Part shown: piece by piece, positions 24,791-39,676 of the stretch
Position numbering within the stretch: the first letter of the stretch is position 1
How the letters are laid out: each line of letters starts with the position of its first letter
Assembly: GCA_016792935.1 (NCBI GenBank)
Contig: JAEUJS010000142.1
Coordinates: 1-44,315 of the forward strand
DNA: 44,315 bases
Source of the DNA: Archangium sp.
GTDB lineage: Bacteria; Myxococcota; Myxococcia; Myxococcales; Myxococcaceae
Direction of reading: 5' to 3'
Translations under genes and position numbers: made by a program
The notes under the pieces: generated by a model
What the model was told of the DNA's origin: nothing
Seen by the model: the letters and a program-made list of their open reading frames with translations, nothing else
Database searches by the model: none

Positions 24791-25161
24791 ATGAGTTCCG
24801 TCGTATTGATCGTCGACGATGAACGCGCGGTCGCTCTCGCGCTGTCCCGTCAGCTGCGCGCCCTGGGGCGAACGTCATGGTGCTCGACGACCCCACCGAG
24901 GTCGAGGCGACGGTCGCCGCCAATGAAGTCAGCGCGATCATCTGTGACAAGCGCATGCCGATTCGCTCCGGCGTCGACGTGCTGCTGGCGATCAAGCAGC
25001 GGTTTCCAGAGATCGCCCGCTGCCTCCTCACCGGCTCGCTCAGCGAGCTCACCCAGGACGAAGTCGAGCGTCTCGGGCCGTGCGTGCTGATCAGCAAGCC
25101 GTGGACGCAGCACGATCTGACCACCCTCATTCGCGGCTGGAAGCTCGGTCAGAACGCATAG
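24791..25161 (+). pseudogene. Receiver-only response regulator, frameshifted
   Basis: The ATG at 24791 begins a receiver domain (MSSVVLIVDDERAVALALSR) that goes off frame at the G4 run 24865-24868. The rest continues in the next frame to 25161: MVLDDPTEVEATV, then IICDKRMPIRSG with the phosphoacceptor Asp, the switch Thr/Ser in LLTGSL and the Lys in ISKPW. Adding one G to the run (LRALGANVMVLDD) restores a normal ~124-residue receiver with every key residue. That makes a recent one-base loss or a sequencing error likelier than decay. No output domain. The first porin gene begins 12 bases later, so the two are probably cotranscribed. Confidence 0.75.
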
Positions 25162-25172
25162 AGTCGCGCGCC

Positions 25173-26660
25173 ATGTCGCTGCGCCACCTCGCATTCGTCG
25201 TGATCATCTCGACGCCCGCGCTCGCAGGCGAAGACGCCGGCATCGACCCCGCCGACCTGCTCCGTCGCATCGAAGCCCTCGAAGCGGAGCTCGCGAAGCG
25301 CCCAACGAATCCTCCGCCGCCACCTCCGCCGACACAGACCGTTCCCGACGCGCAGCCGCTCGATGTGACCGAGCCTCCGTTCTCGAAGTTCGACTGGTCG
25401 TGGCTCAACGGCTCGAACTACCAGCCCGCGTCGCTCCTGAAGATCGGCCCGGTGGTTCCCACGTTCTTCGTCGACGCTGACTACGCGTGGCAGTTCAGCA
25501 ACCCGGCTGACCACACCATCTTCCCGACGACGACCGCCGCGCGTCACTCCGAGTTCAGTTTGAACCTCGCGTACCTCGGCTTCGAGCTGCTCGCGAACGG
25601 CATCGACACGCCCTTCGGTGGCCCGATCGGACGCTTCGAGGTTCAGATGGGCAGCTACATCGCGACCATTCACGGGCAAGACGCGACGCTGCAGCGCGGC
25701 TCGTTCCTCTCGAACCCGACGCTGAGCTACGTGAAGCAGGCTGGCGCGGGCTGGCACTTTCACTGGCTGCACGGCGTCAACATCGAGCTGGGCATCTTCC
25801 CCTCGTACATCGCGCTCGAGAGCTTCACGCCGCAAGAGAACTGGAACTACACGCACCCGTTCGTCTCTGACTTCACGCCGTATTACTTCTCGGGGCTGCG
25901 CACGCAGCTGTTCCTCCTCGAGAACCAGAAGCTCGAGCTGTGGTTGGTGAACGGCTGGCAGAGCTTCGGGCGCTGGCACGACGCGCTCACCGGCGGTTAC
26001 CTCTACAACGTGCGTCACTCGAACTGGTTTTCGTTCACGCACACGCTCTACGCAGGCCAGGAACAGACGCGCGCTTCTGATCCGAACAGCCAGAGCTTCC
26101 GCGTGTACACCGACAACTACGCGCAGGTGTTGCTGCTCAATCAGCTCGACCGTGGCTTCTTCCAACGCCTGGCGCTCTGTCTGGTCGCCGACGCCGGCTA
26201 CGAATTTCGCGGGCCGACCGCGGGTGAGATCGTCGATGGCCGCCGCACGCCGCCCAACGGACCGATGGTCGGTGGCTCGCTCACGCTGCGCGCGGAATGG
26301 ACGCGCTGGTTGATGACCACGCTGCGCGGAGACGTCTTCTACGACCGCAGCTCCGCCGTGGTGTACCCGCTGCCGCTCGGAAATCTGTACACGCTCCCCG
26401 GCAACGGCAGCACCGTGAATCCCTTCGAGTTCCTCGGAGGCGGCTTCACCGCGACCATCGACCTGCGCCCCAGCCCGTGGCTCGTGTTGCGCGTCGAATA
26501 CGCGCACCGCGCCGCGAATCAGCCGTATTTCTCCGGACCCGCAGGAATCACCGGCCCCAACGGCCTGCCTCCCGTCGACGACGCCGCGCGCGCAGCCTTT
26601 TCGCCGGACCTGAGAACGACCGATGACCGCGTCGTCGCGAACGTCACGCTCCGCATGTAG
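25173..26660 (+). CDS. Outer-membrane beta-barrel porin, OmpL-like (BBP2), copy 1
   Basis: 495 residues with a signal peptide (MSLRHLAFVVIISTPALA). A short coiled-coil-like helix (ADLLRRIEALEAELAKR) and a proline run come before the barrel, like the trimerising N-terminus of some porins. The barrel has alternating strands with many aromatics. Signature pieces are VDADYAWQFSNPADH, NVNLAY-type strands, IELGIFPSYIALES and LWLVNGWQSFGRW; these recall the BBP2/OmpL-like porins that also sit beside kdp genes in Bacteroidetes. It ends with strand VVANVTLRM, Met instead of the usual terminal Phe. Predicted role: passage of ions, perhaps K+, through the outer membrane. Follows the receiver gene. Confidence 0.82.
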   Translation: MSLRHLAFVVIISTPALAGEDAGIDPADLLRRIEALEAELAKRPTNPPPPPPPTQTVPDAQPLDVTEPPFSKFDWSWLNGSNYQPASLLKIGPVVPTFFVDADYAWQFSNPADHTIFPTTTAARHSEFSLNLAYLGFELLANGIDTPFGGPIGRFEVQMGSYIATIHGQDATLQRGSFLSNPTLSYVKQAGAGWHFHWLHGVNIELGIFPSYIALESFTPQENWNYTHPFVSDFTPYYFSGLRTQLFLLENQKLELWLVNGWQSFGRWHDALTGGYLYNVRHSNWFSFTHTLYAGQEQTRASDPNSQSFRVYTDNYAQVLLLNQLDRGFFQRLALCLVADAGYEFRGPTAGEIVDGRRTPPNGPMVGGSLTLRAEWTRWLMTTLRGDVFYDRSSAVVYPLPLGNLYTLPGNGSTVNPFEFLGGGFTATIDLRPSPWLVLRVEYAHRAANQPYFSGPAGITGPNGLPPVDDAARAAFSPDLRTTDDRVVANVTLRM

Positions 26661-26665
26661 CAGGC

Positions 26666-26706
26666 GTCTTGATGCCGTCTTGATACGCGCGAGCCCCGCT
26701 TTGACG
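26666..26706 (+). promoter_or_regulatory. 11-bp-phased direct repeat and -35, kdp-porin promoter
   Basis: GTCTTGAT occurs at 26666-26673 and again at 26677-26684, an 11-base period typical of OmpR/PhoB-family binding sites. Sixteen bases further is TTGACG (26701-26706), a good -35; the -10 near 26724-26729 is weak, as expected of an activated promoter. The next gene (26740) starts a run ending in kdpDE, and KdpE belongs to the OmpR family, so this is a candidate KdpE site. Confidence 0.45.
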
Positions 26707-26739
26707 CGGGCCTGATCTCGCAATGGCTACATCGGAGCC

Positions 26740-28134
26740 ATGAAAACGCTCCGTCACGCCATCCTCTTTCTCGCGCTCGGCACCGCCGCGTGGGCCCAGG
26801 AAGATGCAGGTCCCGCAGCTCCAGCCGAAGCCGTCGCCGTCGATGCGGGCATCGCGCCCGTCGTTGCCGAGAACAACGCGTCTGACTTTGCGCCGGCGGT
26901 GACGCCGTTTGGCTTCGCCGATTTCTCGTGGGTGCCGGGCAACTACGGCGGGCCGGTGCGCCCGATGACGTGGGGCCCGTTCTCGGGCGAGTTCCGCGCT
27001 GACGTCGTCTACCACCACAGCTTCGCCAACCCGTCGGACAACACCATCTCGGGCTCGAGCGAAGTCTTCCGCCACGGCGAAGTGCAGGTCACCCAGCTCG
27101 GGATCGGCGGCGACTTTTATTACAAGGGCGCGCACGGCCGGCTGATGACCCAGTTCGGCATGTACTCGCAGACCACGCCGCGCAACGACGCGAGCCCCGC
27201 GCGTGGTCAGTGGAACCTCGCCGACGCGTACCGCTACATCTCCGAGGCGTACGCCGGGTACCACTTCGACGTGCTCGCGGGCATCAACGTCCAGGCGGGC
27301 ATCTTCATGAGCTACATCGGGCTCTGGAGTTATTACAACTTCGACAACTGGACGTATCAGCCCTCGTACGTCAGCTCGAACACGCCGTGGTTCTTCAACG
27401 GTGTTCGCGCGCAGATCTACGTCAACGACAAGCTGAAGATCGAACCGTGGCTGGTGAACGGCTGGCAGTCGTACGGCCGCTTCAACAACGGCATCGGCGG
27501 CGGCGGGCAAATCGTCTGGCGCCCGAACGGCAACTTGAGCTTCGTCAGCAACAACTACTTCGGCACCGACACGCTCGGAAACGCGATGCGCTACCGCATT
27601 CACACCGACGACTCGGCGATGGCGAAGTACTACGAGAACAAGGGCGGCATCTTCAGCAAGGGCGCCGTCTCGCTCACCCTCGACGCAGGCTGTGAGTTCG
27701 GCGGCGGCGTCACCTGCGACACGCAGTTCTTCTACGGCTTCATGGCGTACCACCGCGCGTGGTTCTTCAACGACAAGGCCGCGCTCACCGTGGGCGGCGG
27801 AGCGATCAACAACCCGGGCCGCTACCTGGTGTTGCTGCCGCCCATCAACGGAACGACGGCGGCGTCGGGCACTCCGTACTTCACGGCGAACCCGGGCGAT
27901 CCGTACATGGCGTGGGACTTCCAGATCACCACCGACATCTTCCCCGTGCCGTACGTGAACGTGCGCGCCGAGTTCAACCACCGCGCGGCGAGCGTGCCGT
28001 ACTTCAGCGGTCGCGGAGGCGTCACGCCGCCGGGTGGAAATCAGGGCGCGCCCGGCTCGCTCGTCGATGGCTGGACGCCCGATCTCGTGCCCACCGAAGA
28101 CCGGCTCACCGTGTCGCTGTCGGTGAAGATTTGA
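26740..28134 (+). CDS. Outer-membrane beta-barrel porin, OmpL-like (BBP2), copy 2
   Basis: 464 residues with signal peptide MKTLRHAILFLALGTAAWA. It is a diverged paralogue of the upstream porin: PWLVNGWQSYGRF against LWLVNGWQSFGRW, and FNHRAASVPYFSG against YAHRAANQPYFSG, at matching places. It lacks the coiled-coil/proline N-terminal part and has an Ala/Glu/Asp-rich linker instead. The barrel ends in LTVSLSVKI. The kdp genes follow on the same strand (9 bases to the next small ORF), so it is probably the first gene of the kdp transcript and regulated by potassium supply. Role as an outer-membrane K+ entry pore is inferred from family and context. Confidence 0.82.
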   Translation: MKTLRHAILFLALGTAAWAQEDAGPAAPAEAVAVDAGIAPVVAENNASDFAPAVTPFGFADFSWVPGNYGGPVRPMTWGPFSGEFRADVVYHHSFANPSDNTISGSSEVFRHGEVQVTQLGIGGDFYYKGAHGRLMTQFGMYSQTTPRNDASPARGQWNLADAYRYISEAYAGYHFDVLAGINVQAGIFMSYIGLWSYYNFDNWTYQPSYVSSNTPWFFNGVRAQIYVNDKLKIEPWLVNGWQSYGRFNNGIGGGGQIVWRPNGNLSFVSNNYFGTDTLGNAMRYRIHTDDSAMAKYYENKGGIFSKGAVSLTLDAGCEFGGGVTCDTQFFYGFMAYHRAWFFNDKAALTVGGGAINNPGRYLVLLPPINGTTAASGTPYFTANPGDPYMAWDFQITTDIFPVPYVNVRAEFNHRAASVPYFSGRGGVTPPGGNQGAPGSLVDGWTPDLVPTEDRLTVSLSVKI

Positions 28135-28142
28135 GTCATGCC

Positions 28143-28358
28143 ATGCGCACGCCACGCGACATCGCCGGCTTTCTGCTGCCGTTGGTGGTGCTGATCATCT
28201 CGCTGTCGGTGGTCATCGCGCGCAACACGGGAGTGCCGATCTCGTCGCTCGAGTTCGGCCTCGCCTGTGGCTTCGGTTCCATCTCGTTGTTGGTGCTGGT
28301 GCTGTCGATTCCAGGCAGCAGCGGCAAACCAGGAAAGGACGGTGAAAGCGATGAATGA
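28143..28358 (+). CDS. Small two-helix membrane protein in the kdp operon
   Basis: 71 residues from the ATG at 28143 (MRTPRDIAGFLLPLVV), 9 bases after the porin stop. Two membrane helices, residues ~8-26 and ~39-57, are joined by NTGVPISSLEF; a short charged tail (SGKPGKDGESDE) ends it. Codon use matches the neighbours and the hydrophobic pattern is clean, so I take it as real. It overlaps the next tiny ORF by 8 bases. Not a recognised Kdp subunit; its place suggests an accessory role. Confidence 0.6.
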   Translation: MRTPRDIAGFLLPLVVLIISLSVVIARNTGVPISSLEFGLACGFGSISLLVLVLSIPGSSGKPGKDGESDE

Positions 28359-28434
28359 CGCGGTCGCCCTGCTCACCTTCGCCGGTCTCTTTCTGTTGAG
28401 CCGGCTCTTCGTCGCGCTCTGCAAGCGCGTCTGA
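28351..28434 (+). CDS. 27-residue single-helix membrane peptide upstream of kdpF
   Basis: Reads MNDAVALLTFAGLFLLSRLF then VALCKRV and stops at 28434. AAGCGATG supplies little Shine-Dalgarno, but the start lies in the end of the previous gene (8-base overlap), so coupling is likely. One membrane helix followed by a positive end. Similar tiny ORFs with an ALC-type ending occur ahead of kdpF in other bacteria as I recall, but they are rarely annotated. Its size and shape mimic KdpF, so a lipid-like or regulatory subunit of the pump is possible. Confidence 0.55.
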   Translation: MNDAVALLTFAGLFLLSRLFVALCKRV

Positions 28435-28451: not shown

Positions 28452-28544
28452 ATGTCGATTCTCGTGTGGATGGGAGGAGCGCTCGCCCTGGCGCTCCTCG
28501 GTTACCTGTTCTTCGCCCTGTTGTTCCCGGAGAAGCTGTCATGA
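28452..28544 (+). CDS. kdpF: K+-ATPase subunit KdpF
   Basis: 30 residues: a single membrane helix with [16 protein letters not shown], close to the known KdpF pattern (E. coli LLGYLVYALINAEAF). KdpF stabilises the KdpFABC complex at the KdpA surface. The Shine-Dalgarno AGGGG (28441-28445) is 6 bases before the ATG. The stop overlaps the kdpA start as ATGA. It is too short to be found by ordinary gene callers. Confidence 0.88.
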   Translation: MSILVWMGGALALALLGYLFFALLFPEKLS

Positions 28545-30193
28545 CTGCGCATGCGTGGTTGGAGTTCGGCGCGTGGTTGGCGCTGCTCCTCGCGGTCGCC
28601 TGGCCGCTGGGAGAATTGTTGGCGCGTGTGCTCGGCGAGTCCGCGCCGACGCGCTTCGAACGCGGGCTGCTCCGCGTCGCCGGCGTCGACGCCAACGCGC
28701 CGATGGACTGGGCGACCTACGCGAAGGCCGTGCTCGTCTTCAACGTGCTCGGCGCGCTCGTCGTCTTCGCGCTGCAGCGGCTGCAGGCGTCGCTGTGGCT
28801 CAACCCCGCGGGGCTCCCCGCCGTGCCCACCGATGTGGCGTTCAACACCGCGGTCAGCTTCGCCACCAACACCAACTGGCAGGCCTACGGCGGCGAGTCG
28901 ACCATGAGCCACCTCGTGCAGATGGCCGCGCTGACGACGCAGAACTTCGTGTCGGCGGCGACGGGCATCGCGGTGTTCCTCGCGCTGGTGCGTGGACTGA
29001 CGCGAGCGCAGACCGACTCACTCGGAAATTTCTGGTTCGATCTCACCCGTTCCACGCTGGTGCTCTTCGCCATCGCGGTGCCGGTGACGCTGCTCCTGAT
29101 GGCGACGGGTGTTCCGCAGACCCTGCTCGGGGTGAGTGATGGTGCGTCGACTGGCCCCGTCGCGTCGCAGGTCGCGATCAAACAGCTCGGCACCAACGGC
29201 GGCGGCTTCTTCAACGTGAACTCCGCGCACCCGCTCGAGAATCCGTCGCCTGCGTCGAACCTGCTCGAGTCTCTGTCGATTCTGATCATCCCCGCGGCGC
29301 TGTGCTTCACGTTCGGCCGGCTGGTGAAAGATCGCCGCCAGGGCCTCGCGCTCATCGCGGCGATGCTCGTCATCTTCATTCCCTTCACGCTCGTCGGGCT
29401 GTGGTCGGAACAAGCGGGCGTGCCGCAGCTGAGCGCGCTCGGTGTCGACGCGAGCGCCGGTCACCTCGAAGGCAAAGAAGTGCGCTTCGGCACGGTCTCG
29501 TCGGTCATCTGGTCGACCGCGACCACGGCCGCGTCGAACGGCTCGGTCAACGCGATGCACGACAGCTTCACGCCGCTCGCCGGCCTGGGGCCGATGGTGC
29601 TCATGCAGTTGGGAGAGATCGTCTTCGGCGGCGTCGGCTCCGGGCTCTACGGAATGCTGCTCTACGTGTTGGTGGCGGTCTTCATCTCCGGGCTGATGGT
29701 GGGGCGCACGCCCGAGTACCTCGGCAAGAAGATCGAAGGCCGGGAGATCAAGATGGCGGCGCTGGGCATCCTGCTTCCCTCGGCGGCGGTGCTCGTCGGC
29801 GCGGCCGTGGCCACCGTCGTCGGCGCCGGGGCCATCGCCAACCCGGGCGCGCACGGCTTCTCGGAAATCCTCTACGCGTTCAGCTCGGGCTCGAACAACA
29901 ACGGCTCGGCGTTCGGCGGCCTGACGGTGAACGGCACGTTCTACGCGGTGGCCATCGGCCTCTGCATGTGGGTGGGCCGCTTCTTCGTCATCATCCCCGT
30001 GCTCGCCATCGCGGGCTCGCTCGCCTCGCGCAAGAAGGTCGCCATCTCGGCGGGCACCCTGCCCACGCACACGCCGCTCTTCGTCGCGCTGGTGGTCGCC
30101 ACCATCGTGCTGGTCGGCGCGCTCACCTTCATTCCCTCGCTCGCGCTGGGTCCCATCGTCGAGCACCTGCAGATGATTGGAGCCTCGTCATGA
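28541..30193 (+). CDS. kdpA: K+-ATPase channel subunit KdpA
   Basis: 550 residues. KdpA is the K+-selective, channel-like subunit of the high-affinity KdpFABC pump in the inner membrane. The four selectivity-filter repeats are recognisable: [31 protein letters not shown], a third at [15 protein letters not shown], and a fourth at [13 protein letters not shown]. About ten membrane helices alternate with them. The ATG at 28541 overlaps the kdpF stop, and the stop overlaps kdpB as ATGA. Length matches E. coli KdpA (557). Very secure. Confidence 0.97.
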
Positions 30194-32259
30194 GCGCCAC
30201 CACCGCCCGCCCGCTGTTCGAGAGCGCCCTGGTCAAACGCGCCGTCGTCGACTCGTTCAAGAAGCTCGACCCGCGCCGCATGGTGAAGAACCCGGTGATG
30301 TTCGTGGTCGAGGTCGGCAGCCTCTTCACCACCATTCTCGGGCTCCACGCGCTCATCACGCACCACGGAGACACCAGCGCCGCCTTCGTGCTCGCCGTGT
30401 CCGCGTGGCTGTGGTTCACGGTGTTGTTCGCCAACTTCGCCGAAGCGATGGCGGAAGGGCGCGGCAAGGCGCAGGCTGATGCCTTGCGCAAGGCACGGCA
30501 AGACGTGCAGACGCGCCGCCTCGCTTCTGCGACACGCGGAGCGACGTTCGAGAAGGTCTCGTCGGCGATTCTCAAGAAGGGCGACCACGTGCTCGTCGAG
30601 CCCGGCGAGCTGATTCCTGCCGACGGTGAAGTCGTCGAAGGCATGGCGTCGGTGGATGAGAGCGCCATCACGGGTGAGTCCGCTCCGGTGATTCGCGAGA
30701 GCGGTGGAGATCGCTCGGCCGTCACCGGTGGCACTCGCGTGCTGTCGGATTTTCTGGTCGTGCGCATCAGCGCCGAGCCGGGTCAGACCTTCCTCGATCG
30801 CATGATCTCGATGGTCGAAGGAGCGAAGCGCAGCAAGACACCCAACGAGCTCGCCCTCGACATTCTCCTCGCCGCGCTGACCATCGTGTTCCTGCTCGCG
30901 ACGGTGACGCTGCGCCCGTTCTCGGCGTTCGCAGTGAATCAAGCCGGCAGCGGAACGGTGGTGAGCCTCACGGTGCTCGTCGCGCTGCTGGTGTGTCTGA
31001 TTCCGACCACCATCGGCGGGCTGCTCTCGGCCATCGGCATCGCGGGCATGGATCGCCTCGTTCAGGCCAACGTCATCGCCACGAGTGGACGTGCCGTGGA
31101 GGCCGCGGGCGACGTCGACGTGTTGTTGCTCGACAAGACCGGCACCATCACGCTCGGCAATCGGCAGGCGTCGGACTTCATTCCGGCTCCGGGTGTGACG
31201 GTGAAGGACCTCGCCGACGCCGCCCAGCTGGCGTCGCTGGCCGACGAGACGCCGGAAGGGCGCAGCATCGTGGTGCTCGCCAAGCAACACGGCCTGCGTG
31301 GACGCGAGCTCGCTGAGCTGCAGGCGACCTTCGTGCCGTTCACCGCGCAGACGCGCATGAGCGGCGTCGATCTCCAGGGCCGTCAGGTGCGCAAGGGAGC
31401 GGCCGACGCGATCGCGAAGTTCCTCGAGGAAAAGGGGCAATCGCTGCCGGCCGCGGTGCGTGACGTGGTCGTCGAGACGGCGAAGCAGGGCGCGACTCCG
31501 CTCGTCGTCGCCGACGGCGCGAAGGCGCTCGGCGTGGTGAAGCTCAAAGACGTCGTGAAGGGCGGCATCAAGGAAAAGTTCGCCGAGCTGCGCCGCATGG
31601 GCATTCGCACCGTGATGATCACCGGTGACAACCCGCTCACCGCCGCGGCCATCGCTGCCGAGGCCGGCGTCGACGACTTCCTCGCCGAAGCCACGCCCGA
31701 GCAGAAACTCACCAAGATCCGCGACTACCAGACGCGCGGACACCTCGTGGCCATGACCGGAGATGGCACCAACGACGCTCCCGCGCTCGCGCAGGCCGAC
31801 GTCGCAGTGGCGATGAACACCGGCACGCAGGCGGCGAAGGAAGCCGGGAACATGGTCGACCTCGATTCCAACCCGACCAAGCTCATTCGCATCGTCGAGA
31901 TCGGCAAGCAGATGTTGATGACGCGCGGCTCGCTCACCACCTTCAGCATCGCCAACGACATCGCGAAGTACTTCGCGATCATCCCCGCGGCGTTCGCCAC
32001 CACCTACCCGGCCCTCAAGGTGCTCGACATCATGCGCCTGCACTCGCCCACCAGCGCGGTGATGTCGGCCGTCATCTTCAACGCGCTCATCATCGTGGCG
32101 CTCATTCCACTCGCGCTGCGCGGCATCAGCGCGAAGCCGGCGCCCGCGGCCCAGGTGCTCACGCGCAACGTGCTCATCTACGGCCTGGGCGGCGTCGTGT
32201 TGCCATTCCCGTGCATCAAGATCATCGATCTGACGCTCGGCGCTCTGGGGGTCGCATGA
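30190..32259 (+). CDS. kdpB: K+-ATPase catalytic subunit KdpB
   Basis: 689 residues, a P1-type ATPase energising K+ uptake. The phosphorylated Asp315 is in DKTGTITLG (E. coli Asp307). The actuator loop is [11 protein letters not shown], the nucleotide domain has [13 protein letters not shown] and KGAADAI, and the hinge reads [31 protein letters not shown] with [22 protein letters not shown]. The N-terminus [18 protein letters not shown] is ordinary. The start overlaps kdpA and the stop overlaps kdpC, both as ATGA, so the subunits are made in step. Confidence 0.97.
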
Positions 32260-32825
32260 TTCGCCCTGCACTCGTGTTGTTGACGTTCTTCACGCTGGTC
32301 ACCGGCGTGGCGTGGCCACTCGCGCTCACGGTGTTCGACGACGGCAAGCTCGCGCCCGGCGCGGTGACGATGAAGGTCTTCGATGGCCCGGGCGATTTCT
32401 GGAGCCGGCCGAGCGCCGGCACGCCGACGGCGAGCAGCGGCAGCAACCTCGGGCCGACGAACCCCGCGTTCCTCGAGGCGGTGAAGAAGCGCGTGGAAGC
32501 GATGCGCGCAGCGCACCCCACGCAGAGCGGGCCGGTGCCAGCCGAGCTCATCACCGCGAGCGGGAGTGGATTGGATCCCGACCTCAGCGTCGCTGGCGCG
32601 AAGTACCAGCTCGATCGCGTCGCGCTCGCTCGCGGTGTGACGCGCGCGAAATTGGAAGAGCTCGTCGACGCGCACACCCAGCCGCGCTTCATCGGCATCT
32701 TCGGAGAGCCGCGCGTCAACGTGACGCGACTGAACCTCGCGCTCGCGGCCCTCGCCCCGCTCGCCGCGACGCCACCGCCACCCACGCCCGACGCCACGCT
32801 CGATGCCGGAGCGCCCCCACCGTGA
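32256..32825 (+). CDS. kdpC: K+-ATPase subunit KdpC, with shortened neck and Pro tail
   Basis: 189 residues. KdpC, with one N-terminal membrane helix ([20 protein letters not shown]), helps ATP binding to the complex. [41 protein letters not shown] and [14 protein letters not shown] are conserved. The stretch between helix and RPSA is some 18-20 residues shorter than in E. coli, lacking the GS.LIGQ.F segment. A Pro/Ala-rich tail of about 20 residues ([13 protein letters not shown]...) is extra, so total length is unchanged. Start overlaps kdpB as ATGA. Confidence 0.94.
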
Positions 32826-33003: not shown

Positions 33004-35679
33004 GTGACGTCTGACGCCGCCGACCGCCGCCCTGATCCCGACGCGCTGCTCAAGCGCGTCACGGCCGAGGCGAGCACGCGCGCGCGGTTGAAGATCTTCT
33101 TCGGCTTCGCTCCGGGCGTCGGCAAGACGTTCGCGATGCTCGAATCGGCACACCGGCTCATCGCCCAGGGTGTCTCGGTGGTGGTGGGCATCGTCGAGAC
33201 GCACGGCAGATCGGAGACCGCGGCGCTGCTCGAAGGCCTCGAGGTTCTGCCGCGCAAGAAGCTCGAGTACCGCGGCACCACGCTCGAGGAATTCGATCTC
33301 GAGCGCGCGCTCGCCCGCAAGCCGCAGGTCCTGCTCCTCGACGAGCTGGCGCACACCAACGTGCAGGGCAGCCGCCACGAGCGCCGCTGGCAAGACGTGC
33401 TCGAGCTGCTCGACGCGGGCATCGAGGTGCACACCACGCTCAACGTGCAGCACGTCGAGAGCCTCAACGACGTGGTGGAACAGATCACCCGCGTGCAGGT
33501 GCGCGAGACCGTGCCTGACGCGCTGCTCGAGCGCGCCGACGGCATCGAGCTGGTCGACCTGCCGCCTGAAGAGCTCCTCAAGCGGCTGCGCGACGGAAAG
33601 GTGTACCTGCCCGAGCAGGCGCGGCGCGCGGGCGAGCACTTCTTCCGCGAAGGCAATCTCCTCGCGCTGCGTGAGCTGGCGCTGCGTCGCACCGCCGAGC
33701 GCGTCGACCGCGCCGTGCAGGACTACCGCAAGCTCCACGAGATCCAGACCACGTGGCCCGCGGGCGAGCGGTTGCTGGTGTGCGTCGGACCCGCTCCGGC
33801 GTCAGCACGGCTCGTGCGAGCGACGCGTCGCATCGCCGCTGGTCTGCGCGCGCCCTGGTACGCGGCCTGCGTCGCCAACCCCGTCGCGCCGCTGGCGAAG
33901 GAAGATCAGGCTCGCCTCGAAGCGCACCTCGAGCTCGCGCAGTCACTCGGTGGCGAGGTCGTGCGCCCCTCGGGCACCGCCATCGCCGAGGAGCTGTTGT
34001 CGTGGGCGCGCGCGCACAACGTCACCCGCATCCTGCTCGGAAAACCCACCCACACGTGGTGGCGCGATCGACTGCGCGGCTCACTGCTCGACGCCATCGT
34101 GCGAGGGAGCGGAGACATCGACGTGCTCGTCATCTCCGGCGACGCCGAAGATCCACGGCCGCGTGAGGCGAGCGCTCCGACAGAACGCGCGCCGTGGTGG
34201 GCGTGGGTCACCAGCGTCGCGGCGATCGCCGTCACCACCGGCGTGAACTTCCTGATGCACCACGAGTTCAAGGTGCCCGACCCTGAGGTGCTCTTCCTCG
34301 CGACCATCATGTTGGTGGCGGCGGCGTTCGGTCGGGGGCCGTCGCTCCTCGCGTCGGCGCTCTCGGTGGCGGCGTACGACTTCTTCTTCGTGCCGCCCTA
34401 CTTCACCTTCACCGTCACCGACTCACGGTACGTGCTCACCTTCACGATGATGTTCGTGGTGGGCGTGGTGACCTCGACCCTCGTGAGCCGCATGCGTGGG
34501 CAGGAACGCGAGGCGCGGTCGCGAGAGACCGACACGCGGGCGTTGCTCTCGCTCACGCGCGACGTGGGGCACGCCTCGACCGTCGCCGAACTGGCGCGCG
34601 CGCTGTCGTCACACGTCGTCGAGGCCGTGGGCGGGAGCGTGGTGGTGCTGATGCCCGGCGCCGGCGGCCTGAGCGTCATCGGCAGCTCTCCGGAAGGCAC
34701 CACGCTCGAGAAGACCGACCTCGGCGTCGCGCAGTGGACACACGAGCACCAACGCGAAGCCGGGCTCTCGACGCCCACGCTCTCGGGGGCGCGCGTGCTG
34801 GCGTTGCCCATCGGCCGCGCCTCGGGCGTGCTCGCCTGGAGGCCGGGCAGAGAAGACCTCGACCCACAGCGCCGCGCGCTCCTCGACGCCTTCAACCGCC
34901 AGGCGGGGCTCGCGCTCGATCGCCTGCAGTTCGGAGAGGCCGCGCGCACCGCCGCGCTCAAGGCCCGCACCGAAGAGCTGCGCAGCTCGCTCTTGTCCAC
35001 GGTGTCGCACGACCTCCGCACGCCGCTCGCGGTCGTGACCGGCGCCGCGAGCACGCTGCGCGATGACCGCGAGCTGTCCGACGACAACCGGCAGCAGCTG
35101 GTGGAGACCATCGTCGACGAAGCCGAGCGCCTCGAACGCGTGGTGCGCAACCTGCTCGACATGACCCGGGTGCAGGCGGGCGCGCTCAAGGTGAAGAAGG
35201 AATGGGTGCCGGTGGACGAGCTCATCGGCTCGGCGCGCACGCGCTTGAGCAAGGTGCTCGCCGGGCGCGACATCACCACGCGCGTGTCACCCGACGCGCC
35301 CTTCGTGCACGCCGACCCCGCGCTCTTCGAACAGGTGCTCTTCAACCTCCTCGACAACGCGGCGAAGTACACGCCGGCCGGCTCTCCGCTCGAGCTCGAG
35401 GTGACTCGACGTGACGAGACCACGCGGCTCGCGGTGAGCGATCGCGGCCCCGGTGTGCCCGAAGAAGAGCGCGAGCGCCTGTTCGACAAGTTCTACCGGG
35501 GGCCTTCGGCGCAGGCGGCTCCGGGCGCGGGGCTGGGGCTGGCCATCTGCCGCGGCATCATCGAAGCGCACGGCGGCACCCTGCACGTCGAGGGGCGCGA
35601 GGGCGGCGGCGCGACGTTCGTGATCACCGTGCCGCGCGACGGTGAGCCGCCGCAGATTCCGACCGAGGAGGCGACATGA
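33004..35679 (+). CDS. kdpD: K+-sensing histidine kinase KdpD
   Basis: 891 residues from a GTG at 33004, with GAGAG upstream; the frame is open earlier but that part crosses the gap. KdpD senses low K+ and phosphorylates KdpE. Order: KdpD N-domain with Walker A GFAPGVGKT (34-42) and LLLDELAHTN; a Usp-like domain (~245-375) with ILLGKP; four membrane helices of DUF4118 (~397-495); a GAF-like domain (~510-650); HisKA with His669 in STVSHDLRTPLAVV; HATPase with NLLDNAAKY, DRGPGVP and GAGLGLAI. Length and layout match E. coli KdpD (894). The stop overlaps kdpE as ATGA. Confidence 0.96.
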   Translation: MTSDAADRRPDPDALLKRVTAEASTRARLKIFFGFAPGVGKTFAMLESAHRLIAQGVSVVVGIVETHGRSETAALLEGLEVLPRKKLEYRGTTLEEFDLERALARKPQVLLLDELAHTNVQGSRHERRWQDVLELLDAGIEVHTTLNVQHVESLNDVVEQITRVQVRETVPDALLERADGIELVDLPPEELLKRLRDGKVYLPEQARRAGEHFFREGNLLALRELALRRTAERVDRAVQDYRKLHEIQTTWPAGERLLVCVGPAPASARLVRATRRIAAGLRAPWYAACVANPVAPLAKEDQARLEAHLELAQSLGGEVVRPSGTAIAEELLSWARAHNVTRILLGKPTHTWWRDRLRGSLLDAIVRGSGDIDVLVISGDAEDPRPREASAPTERAPWWAWVTSVAAIAVTTGVNFLMHHEFKVPDPEVLFLATIMLVAAAFGRGPSLLASALSVAAYDFFFVPPYFTFTVTDSRYVLTFTMMFVVGVVTSTLVSRMRGQEREARSRETDTRALLSLTRDVGHASTVAELARALSSHVVEAVGGSVVVLMPGAGGLSVIGSSPEGTTLEKTDLGVAQWTHEHQREAGLSTPTLSGARVLALPIGRASGVLAWRPGREDLDPQRRALLDAFNRQAGLALDRLQFGEAARTAALKARTEELRSSLLSTVSHDLRTPLAVVTGAASTLRDDRELSDDNRQQLVETIVDEAERLERVVRNLLDMTRVQAGALKVKKEWVPVDELIGSARTRLSKVLAGRDITTRVSPDAPFVHADPALFEQVLFNLLDNAAKYTPAGSPLELEVTRRDETTRLAVSDRGPGVPEEERERLFDKFYRGPSAQAAPGAGLGLAICRGIIEAHGGTLHVEGREGGGATFVITVPRDGEPPQIPTEEAT

Positions 35680-36365
35680 CTGGCACTGGCCCGTTGATTC
35701 TCCTCGTCGACGACGAGGTGCAGATGCGGCGCTTCTTGCGCGCGGCGCTCACCAGCCAGGGCTACCAGCTGCTCGAAGCCGAGAAGGGCGCCGAGGTGGT
35801 CGGCCTCGTCGCGTCGCACAACCCCGATCTCGTCCTGCTCGATCTCGGCCTGCCCGATCTCGACGGCCTCGAGGTGACGCGCAAGGTGCGTGAGTTCAGC
35901 CGCGTGCCCATCATCGTCATCTCGGCGCGCGGTCGCGAAGATGACAAGGTCATCGCGCTCGACGCGGGCGCCAACGACTACGTCACCAAGCCGTTCGGCA
36001 TCAACGAGCTCCTCGCGCGGCTGCGCGTGGCGTTGAGAGATCGCCAGACGGGAGAAGCAGAGCCCGCCAACATCGAGCTGCGCGGGCTGTCGATCGACTT
36101 CGCGCGCCACGAGGTGAAGCGTGACGGTGAGTTGATCAAGCTCACTCCGCTGGAATTCAAGTTGCTCGCCTGTCTCGCGCGGCACGCCGGCAAGGTGCTC
36201 ACGCATCGCCAGCTGCTCAAAGAAGTGTGGGGACCGACGCATGGCGAGCAGACGCACTACGTGCGCGTGTACATGGCGAACCTGCGCAAGAAGCTCGAGC
36301 CCGATCCTTCGGCGCCGAAGTACCTCCTCACCGAGGCGGGCGTCGGCTACCGCCTGAAGGACTGA
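35676..36365 (+). CDS. kdpE: OmpR-family response regulator KdpE
   Basis: 229 residues. Receiver domain with Asp12/Asp13, phosphoacceptor Asp56 in LVLLDLGLPDLDG, the Ser in VISARG and Lys104 in YVTKPF; then a winged-helix DNA-binding domain (LTPLEFKLLACLARHAG, VRVYMANLRKKLEPDP, GVGYRLKD). It activates kdp transcription when phosphorylated by KdpD. The start overlaps kdpD as ATGA. The phased repeat at 26666-26684 is its best candidate site in the window. Confidence 0.96.
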   Translation: MTGTGPLILLVDDEVQMRRFLRAALTSQGYQLLEAEKGAEVVGLVASHNPDLVLLDLGLPDLDGLEVTRKVREFSRVPIIVISARGREDDKVIALDAGANDYVTKPFGINELLARLRVALRDRQTGEAEPANIELRGLSIDFARHEVKRDGELIKLTPLEFKLLACLARHAGKVLTHRQLLKEVWGPTHGEQTHYVRVYMANLRKKLEPDPSAPKYLLTEAGVGYRLKD

Positions 36366-37702: not shown

Positions 37703-39676
37703 TCACAGGTCGACCTGCATGCCCAGCTCGACCACGCGGCCGGGCGGAATGCCGAAGTAGCTCGTCGCCGGCAGCGCGTTGCGCGACACGAAGGCGAACA
37801 GCAGCTTGCGCCACACCATCATCGGCGACTTGCCGTTGGTGAGGAGCGTCTCGCGCCCGAGGAAATACGAGGTGGTCGACGGCTCACACACCAGGTTGCT
37901 CTCGCGCGCACGAATGAGGATCTTCGGCACGTTCGGCGTTTCCATGAAGCCGGTGTGCCAGAGCACGCGGAAGAAGCCGTTGCCCAGATCCTCGACGCTG
38001 ATCTGTTCCTCTTTTGCGACGGTCGGCACGTCTTCGGGGATGATCGACAACAACACCACCTGCCGGTGCAGCACCTGGTTGTGCTTCAAGTGGTGCAGCA
38101 ACACCGGTGGCGTGCCGTCGGGGTTGCCAGCCATGAACACCGCGGTGCCACGCACGCGATGCGGCTTGGTGGCCTCGAGATCTTCGAGCAGCGCCGACAG
38201 CGGCATGACCGACTGCGTGAAGCGCACGGCCAGTTCCTTGCGGCCCCGCTTCCACGTCGTCATCAGCGCGAACATGCCCACGCCGACCGCGATGGGGAAC
38301 CAGCCACCCTCGAAGAACTTGAGCGCGTTGGCGGCGAAGAACGGAATGTCGAACGCGAGGAAGAGCACCAGCAGCGGCAGCGCCTTCCACATCGCCCACT
38401 TCCAGTTCTTGAGCGTCACCACGAAGTAGACGAGCGAGGTGATGCCCATCGTGCCCGTGACCGCGATGCCGTAGGCGGCGGCAAGCGCGGTCGATTCGCG
38501 GAACACCAACACCAGGCCAAGACAGCTCACCATCAGCGCGACGTTCACTTCGGGGATGAAGATCTGCCCTTCATTCACCGCCGAGGTGTGCACGATGGTG
38601 ACGCGCGGCATGTACCCGAGCGCGACGGCCTGACGGGTGAGCGAGAAGGCCCCGCTGATCAGCGCCTGCGAGGCGATGACCGTGGCCGCCGTGGCCAGAC
38701 CGACCATCGGGTAGAGCGCGAACTCGGGCACGATGGCCCAGAACGGCTTCTCGACCCAGCCGTGCTCGAGCAGAAACGCACCTTGACCGAAGTAGTTCAG
38801 CATCAAGGCCGGGAGCACGATCGCGAACCAGCCGGCGCGAATGGGCTTCGCTCCGAAGTGGCCCATGTCGGCGTAGAGCGCTTCACCACCGGTGATGCAC
38901 AACACGACCGAGCCGAGCACCTTGAACGCGCGCCCCGGGTCGGTCTTGAAGACCTCGACCGCGTAGCCGGGCCAGATGGCCTTCAAGATCTCCGGGTTGT
39001 TGATGATGCCCTTCAACCCCAGCCCGCCGATCACGCAGAACCACACCAGCATGATGGGCCCGAAGGCCTTGCCGATCTTGTCCGTGCCGCGCTTCTGCAC
39101 GAGGAAGAGCGCCAGGAGGATGAGCAGCGTCAGCGGGACGACCCAGCGATCGAAGGTGTGGGTCGCCACGCTCAGGCCTTCGACCGCCGAGAGCACCGAG
39201 ATGGCTGGCGTGATGATGCCGTCGCCGTAGAGCAGCGCCGCGCCGAACAACGCCGCCAGCACCACCGCCCCGCGCACGCGGCTCTCAGCCTTGTGGGGGA
39301 TCAGCGCCAACAACGCGAAGATGCCGCCCTCGCCCTTGTTGTGCGCCCGCATGATGAACGACAGGTACTTCACGGTCACCACCATGGTGAGTGACCAGAA
39401 GAAGAGCGAGAGCAGCCCCATCACGCTCTCGTGGCCGACGACCAGCGAGTGCGGCTTGGTCACGCCCTGCGCGTCCTTCGAGAAACATTCCGCGACGGCG
39501 TAGAGCGGGCTGGTGCCGATGTCGCCGAAGACGATCCCCAACGCTCCGAGCGCGAGCGGGAGCAGCTTCTTCTCGTGACCGTGACCGTGGCCGCTACTGC
39601 TGGGTTCGCCCTTCGATTCGGCGCTCGGCGGCGTGGCCGCAGCCGGCTCAGGAGAGGCACTCATTCGCGGGCTCAT
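37703..39676 (-). CDS. kup: Low-affinity K+ uptake protein Kup
   Basis: 657 residues from the ATG at 39674-39676 (MSPRMSAS), with GGGAG upstream; an ATG 12 bases later is the alternative. Kup is a K+/H+ symporter of the KUP/HAK/KT family. ALGIVFGDIGTSPLYA is the family signature, followed by KYLSFIMRAHNKGEGGIFAL, YGDGIITPAISVLSAVEGL and a dozen membrane helices; a ~180-residue cytoplasmic end follows. The N-terminus carries a Ser/Pro/Gly-His-rich leader (SGHGHGHE) absent from most Kup. It lies next to the kdp operon but on the other strand. Confidence 0.96.
   Translation of the reverse strand: MSPRMSASPEPAAATPPSAESKGEPSSSGHGHGHEKKLLPLALGALGIVFGDIGTSPLYAVAECFSKDAQGVTKPHSLVVGHESVMGLLSLFFWSLTMVVTVKYLSFIMRAHNKGEGGIFALLALIPHKAESRVRGAVVLAALFGAALLYGDGIITPAISVLSAVEGLSVATHTFDRWVVPLTLLILLALFLVQKRGTDKIGKAFGPIMLVWFCVIGGLGLKGIINNPEILKAIWPGYAVEVFKTDPGRAFKVLGSVVLCITGGEALYADMGHFGAKPIRAGWFAIVLPALMLNYFGQGAFLLEHGWVEKPFWAIVPEFALYPMVGLATAATVIASQALISGAFSLTRQAVALGYMPRVTIVHTSAVNEGQIFIPEVNVALMVSCLGLVLVFRESTALAAAYGIAVTGTMGITSLVYFVVTLKNWKWAMWKALPLLVLFLAFDIPFFAANALKFFEGGWFPIAVGVGMFALMTTWKRGRKELAVRFTQSVMPLSALLEDLEATKPHRVRGTAVFMAGNPDGTPPVLLHHLKHNQVLHRQVVLLSIIPEDVPTVAKEEQISVEDLGNGFFRVLWHTGFMETPNVPKILIRARESNLVCEPSTTSYFLGRETLLTNGKSPMMVWRKLLFAFVSRNALPATSYFGIPPGRVVELGMQVDL

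Follow-up and report, generated by a model that had tools for sequence, protein, structure and literature searches.

Introduction

K+ is generally assumed to cross outer membranes freely. For phosphate, OprP is a nutrient-specific porin that is induced together with the high-affinity uptake system Pst; we know of no porin in the kdp operon of E. coli. The regulator KdpE of E. coli binds the sequence TTTATA-N5-TTTACA (PMC3264566). Barrels of the BBP2 family (OmpL-like putative beta-barrel porin-2, PF07642) have been connected with ammonium: OmpL-like proteins are associated with Amt in the glnK-amtB-ompL clusters of Flavobacteriales and viruses (PMC8115048); in Kuenenia, the level of a BBP2 porin goes up when ammonium is limiting (PMC7438415).

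Gene order of the locus

The window, that is, the whole stretch of DNA that was analysed (44,315 nucleotides), carries two BBP2 genes and a complete Kdp operon, all on the plus strand. Porin copy 1 (25173-26660, 495 aa, subclade B1) is separated by 79 bases from porin copy 2 (26740-28134, 464 aa, subclade B2). These are followed in line by a 71-aa small ORF (28143-28358), which starts eight bases past the copy 2 stop codon, a 27-aa single-TM ORF (28351-28434), kdpF (28452-28544), kdpA (28541-30193), kdpB (30190-32259, with relatives that stand in line with kdpA), kdpC (32256-32825), the sensor gene kdpD (33004-35679) and the regulator gene kdpE (35676-36365). The KdpE protein is a full-length relative of E. 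coli KdpE, which is its best match (4kny, E 2e-70), and keeps the recognition region HYxRxYM..LRxKLE. The original prediction had placed two diverged barrel paralogues in tandem directly before kdpFABCDE on the same strand, and the ORFs, their BBP2 matches and an identity of 31% over 442 columns bear this out.

The 71-aa ORF contains TM-like stretches and has no relative in the loci compared. The 27-aa ORF (MNDAVALLTFAGLFLLSRLFVALCKRV in the window, MDLVLVLVTVGFFALAWAYTHGCERL in a typical relative) immediately precedes kdpF in the majority of the order's kdp operons, whether or not a porin is present (~50 loci, e.g. L058, L059, L060, L074). It has no match in Pfam or NCBIfam and could represent a small subunit of Kdp that has no name yet. 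A gene for a Kup-type K+ transporter is located near the cluster on the minus strand (37703-39541), and such a gene is also found near porin-kdp loci in L121, L127, L131, L160 and L197. On the other side, a receiver-domain gene (24791-25161) stops 11 bases short of copy 1; its initial portion lies in a different frame, and it is either a broken gene or an assembly error.

Family and predicted fold of the porins

Copies 1 and 2 score 128.2 and 126.4 bits, respectively, against the BBP2 model (cut-off 26.2) and cover its positions 7-318 and 9-321 out of 339. In a Pfam search at E 0.1, BBP2 is the only family reported for the two proteins, with no match to Phosphate-selective porin O and P (PF07396), and NCBIfam gives neither of them a name. 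There is no third BBP2 protein above the cut-off in the genome (8.8 Mb draft, ~81% complete). The blocks WLVNGWQS(F/Y)GR and HRAA..PYFSG, noticed originally as common to both proteins, are indeed present in both, as are the Sec-type signal sequences (MSLRHLAFVVIISTPALAG and MKTLRHAILFLALGTAAWAQ, read by eye from the sequence).

A sequence search against solved structures gave no meaningful relatives of either protein. AlphaFold2 models both as 16-stranded barrels with moderate confidence (mean pLDDT 75 and 70, pTM 0.76 and 0.72 for the two models), and the models are matched by Foldseek to OprP, OprO, OmpT, Omp32, OmpF, PorB and others, with E values of ~1e-6 to 1e-10 and a probability of 1.0 for the fold matches to porins. 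Structure prediction had been proposed as a check of the two barrels; a protein with no barrel is excluded at the level of prediction, and both proteins are predicted outer-membrane porins.

The inward-facing charges, assigned by strand alternation, are balanced, with ~13 acidic and ~13 basic residues. By the same assignment, the strongly conserved acidic and basic residues both point inward in nearly equal numbers. The predicted net charge of the barrel is about -4 for copy 2 and -7 for copy 1. Because the inward charges are balanced and the net charge of copy 2 is only about -4, nothing in the models marks a K+-selective pore.

The N-terminal region varies. Copy 1 has a short coiled coil and a Pro-rich linker between the signal peptide and the predicted barrel, while copy 2 is without a coiled coil. 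The suggestion that such an N-terminus is special to copy 1 does not hold: a coiled coil is scored in 42 of 81 copy-2-type relatives, some copy 1 orthologues are without one, and it varies within both subclades. This element could also be read as a structural anchor, made when turgor changes, with a coiled coil extending to the cell wall as it does in the attachment porin OmpM1. OmpM1 is among the fold matches, and the coiled coil recurs in about half of the copy-2-type relatives; its absence from the other half and from copy 2 itself, together with a barrel kept at ~56% mean column identity across phyla, makes the anchor very improbable.

Association with kdp across phyla

A phylogenetic profile against kdpA had been set beforehand as a test of the pairing. 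Co-occurrence was found in Myxococcales, Acidobacteriota and Gemmatimonadota, and its absence is excluded. In the order-wide survey of 145 Myxococcales genomes, the order being so called since Corallococcus and Myxococcaceae are among its named relatives, kdpA is present in 97 and BBP2 in 86; 78 genomes have the two together (odds ratio 20, p 1e-13). Within 5 kb of kdpA there are 66 BBP2 genes, distributed over 61 genomes and all on the upstream side of kdpA; five genomes, the one of the window included, have two BBP2 genes near kdpA. In 36 of the 97 genomes with kdpA no BBP2 gene is near it, and the porin is therefore not required for Kdp. An ammonium transporter is present in 129 of the 145 genomes and, among the BBP2 neighbourhoods read, stands beside BBP2 only in L086.

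The Acidobacteriota survey (149 genomes drawn evenly) gave an odds ratio of 18 (p 2e-12), and 14 of the 66 BBP2 genes are beside kdpA, against ~0.2 expected by chance. Another 18 of the 66 are beside an ammonium transporter gene (L201-L218), and none is beside both. In L214-L218 Amt is followed by BBP2, and a KdpD-like gene is in divergent orientation. Among 121 Gemmatimonadota genomes, 28 of them with kdpA, the odds ratio is 22 (p 5e-10), and BBP2 is found 2.7-3.4 kb from kdpA in 22 of the 28, downstream and on the same strand in 21 of these. Such a distance agrees with a location between kdpC and kdpD, and this location was seen directly in L181 and L197.

These p-values are too small, because the genomes were treated as independent and their shared ancestry was ignored; the change of position between phyla, taken with the tree described below, is the stronger evidence. 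BBP2 precedes kdp in Myxococcales and Acidobacteriota but stands between kdpC and kdpD in Gemmatimonadota, and the link therefore originated or was retained on more than one occasion. A frozen neighbourhood, i.e. adjacency without a functional link, would agree with the many genomes that have kdp without the porin and the some that have the porin without kdp, but the differing position and the fidelity to the partner on the tree leave it hardly credible.

When 84,980 species genomes were scanned with the alignment of copies 1 and 2 as the query, 553 relatives were confirmed, and the best 80 of these 553 were kept. They come from Myxococcota, Acidobacteria, Gemmatimonadetes, Planctomycetes, Bdellovibrionales and other MAGs, and kdpA is present in the DNA around the porin at 45 of these 80 loci. 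The named loci were chosen for their likeness to the porins, and they show that the arrangement recurs rather than how frequent it is. L138 has the order of the window (copy-1-type, copy-2-type, kdpABC on one strand), and L160, L134, L130 and L124 each have a pair of BBP2 genes, close to kdp genes or to one another; in L160 and L134 copy-1-type genes are beside the copy 2 type or kdp.

Other surroundings were also seen. In L232, L233 and L239, with no kdpA in the DNA examined there, BBP2 is beside KdpE-like regulators; in two of them, L232 and L239, it has as a further neighbour a sensor-like protein that resembles the membrane part of KdpD. For the Bacteroidetes, where such porins had originally been said to sit beside kdp, the analysis covered two Bacteroidota plasmid BBP2s, and neither is beside kdp.

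Subclades and partner fidelity

In a maximum-likelihood tree of 81 BBP2 proteins, copy 2 groups with an often kdp-linked clade, and copy 1 with unlinked genes of other genera, to which it is up to 73% identical. Among the genomes of the order, no B1 member other than copy 1 is near kdp, and the close orthologues of copy 1 are situated away from kdp in six genomes. A recent tandem duplication was considered and rejected: the copies belong to separate old subclades, each being closest to genes of other genomes.

In a FastTree phylogeny of 121 proteins, one clade of 86 (support 0.95) holds 54 of the 56 kdp-linked porins and no Amt-linked member, with copy 1 inside this kdp-associated branch; the remaining two kdp-linked porins are divergent long-branch members outside it. 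The partner changes between K+ and NH4+ only twice on the tree, compared with a mean of 17.9 and a minimum of 13 after shuffling. For this test L086, whose neighbour is Amt, and L231, whose neighbour is a PII-like gene, were labelled manually as ammonium-linked; L079, which lies between kdpC and kdpD with its kdpA on another contig, received no label. A divergent BBP2 group occurs in four genomes (L097-L100), followed by genes of unknown role where the DNA extends, and another divergent BBP2 (L104, 6023-7465) is beside ABC permease genes that, read by eye, resemble those of polyamine uptake.

The partner data bear on a further reading, a general osmotic-stress porin. Kdp also answers osmotic upshift, and KdpDE responds to salt stress; a barrel co-induced with it could be a general diffusion pore or a carrier of counter-ions or compatible solutes for envelope adjustment rather than for K+ supply. 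Both the balanced interior charges and a fold that is common to general and anion-selective porins are compatible with it. The sister branches, however, pair with an ammonium transporter and not with osmolyte uptake, which points to scarce small cations, and the kdp-linked members belong nearly all to one clade of high partner fidelity. We regard the osmotic-stress porin as unlikely.

A KdpE-type box between the porin genes

The gap between the porin genes holds TTGATG-CCGTC-TTGATA, i.e. two TT-led 6-base direct repeats, 5 bases apart, upstream of copy 2. The half-sites of this first pair (26668-26685, plus strand, CTTGATG-N4-CTTGATA) start at 26668 and 26679, and the pair has the geometry of the E. 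coli KdpE site, with the same 11-base period and TT leading each half-site (PMC3264566). A second, weaker pair (26700-26717, plus strand, TTTGACG-N4-CCTGATC) starts at 26700 and 26711, again 11 apart, and is like the second pair in L121. The sequence CTTGAT-N5-CTTGAT has a single exact match in the whole 8.8 Mb genome, the site in the porin gap, and no match to the box is present elsewhere in the window. Between 24600 and 28700, a sigma-70 consensus scan found no promoter, and terminator-like matches are at shuffle level.

The scoring scheme for the box was fitted by eye after examples had been seen, so that the fair test is the comparison between periods and not the absolute count: at period 11 the strict box stands before 11 of the 28 copy-2-type genes directly upstream of kdpA, compared with counts of 0-1 for other periods. 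It is also found before 9 of 51 other copy-2-type genes and in one of 360 control upstream regions, from which those adjoining kdp and porin genes had been removed. Only strict matches were counted; at looser score thresholds the signal is lost in the background (10.5). The box precedes porin-less kdp operons as well (L059, L108, L070, L072, L061). There is no box before the six unlinked B1 orthologues, nor before the Myxococcaceae class A porins (32 regions), so the control element of the latter, if any, differs.

As the candidate box in the porin gap has the E. coli KdpE geometry and is unique in the genome, copy 2 is probably the first gene of a KdpE-controlled operon, with copy 1 upstream of the putative site. 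No exact 6-base repeat at period 10-12 is present in the 120 bases upstream of copy 1 (before 25173). The original prediction, in which both porins were built into the kdp operon, is thus upheld for copy 2, placed inside the unit headed by the KdpE-type box. For copy 1 it is weakened by the location upstream of the box and by the close orthologues away from kdp, though the same order is found in L138.

Copy 2 alone might then belong to the Kdp system, and copy 1 would be a neighbour with an unrelated function that shares a transcript with the disrupted-frame receiver gene located 11 bases before it. This reading is compatible with the explanation given below for copy 2, and agrees with a box that lies between the copies and is absent before the copy 1 orthologues away from kdp. 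The recurrence of the one-strand order copy 1, copy 2, kdpABC in L138, the copy-1-type genes beside copy 2 or kdp in L160 and L134, and the position of copy 1 within the kdp-associated branch speak against it. An unrelated copy 1 is a serious possibility, which we put somewhat below an even chance.

Proposed function

The explanation that we favour, and consider fairly probable, is that the porins supply the Kdp pump as entry pores in the outer membrane and are induced with it at low K+. Under K+ limitation KdpD would activate KdpE, which may bind the direct-repeat box (26668-26717) and switch on copy 2, the downstream small ORFs and kdpFABCDE. The 16-stranded barrel would then raise the K+ permeability of the outer membrane and let the periplasm feed the high-affinity pump; by analogy, the logic would be that of OprP with Pst. 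Lined by both acidic and basic residues, the barrel is probably cation-permeable and not strictly K+-selective. Copy 1 would be an older paralogue of the same K+-associated branch, beside the unit, transcribed from its own upstream region or together with the unit, and its role is probably a related one.

The computation establishes the family, the adjacency and its conservation across phyla, the fidelity to the partner, and the position and geometry of the box, whereas KdpE binding, induction at low K+ and the identity and direction of the ion are inferred. The computational results uphold the original idea of a dedicated outer-membrane K+ route made together with the pump as far as the gene-level and regulatory association goes (three phyla, fidelity on the tree, a candidate KdpE-type site); on K+ selectivity they give no indication, the predicted inward charges being balanced. 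The Amt-linked sister branches and the ammonium-responsive BBP2 of Kuenenia fit a role of the family in the entry of small monovalent cations. It is a more speculative and rather doubtful step to regard BBP2 proteins as partner-matched, ion-specific outer-membrane channels for the similar-sized K+ and NH4+, with one branch serving Kdp and co-regulated with it, sister branches serving Amt, the pore itself discriminating, and the outer membrane acting as a regulated barrier in many diderm phyla.

That an old, apparently regulated porin-Kdp pairing has been kept in Myxococcota, Acidobacteriota and Gemmatimonadota implies that, in these bacteria, K+ supply can be limited by the outer membrane. For BBP2, a large and uncharacterised family of Pfam, it also provides a substrate class open to direct testing, and the promoter element can be used to find further members of the KdpE regulon.

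Comparison with known systems

A literature search, thin on subscription journals, found no description of BBP2 with kdp, and the novelty of the association is provisional. The Pfam description of BBP2, whose curated cut-off the porins of the window exceed by ~100 bits, names no substrate; the present analysis defines within it a kdp-associated branch that has a KdpE-type promoter element. With kdpFABC-kdpDE of E. coli the locus shares the pump, the sensor, the regulator, the KdpE protein and the half-site geometry of the promoter, but E. coli has no BBP2 match over the cut-off (control search). The phosphate and pyrophosphate porins OprP and OprO (PF07396) are alike in the 16-stranded barrel and are among the top fold matches; they differ in sequence (~9-10% identity, with the porins of the window outside PF07396) and in the partner, which here is K+ uptake. 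In the glnK-amtB-ompL clusters and in Kuenenia, a BBP2/OmpL-like porin is likewise tied to the import of a scarce monovalent cation, whereas the partner there is ammonium uptake and not Kdp, and the Amt-linked BBP2s fall outside the kdp-associated clade.
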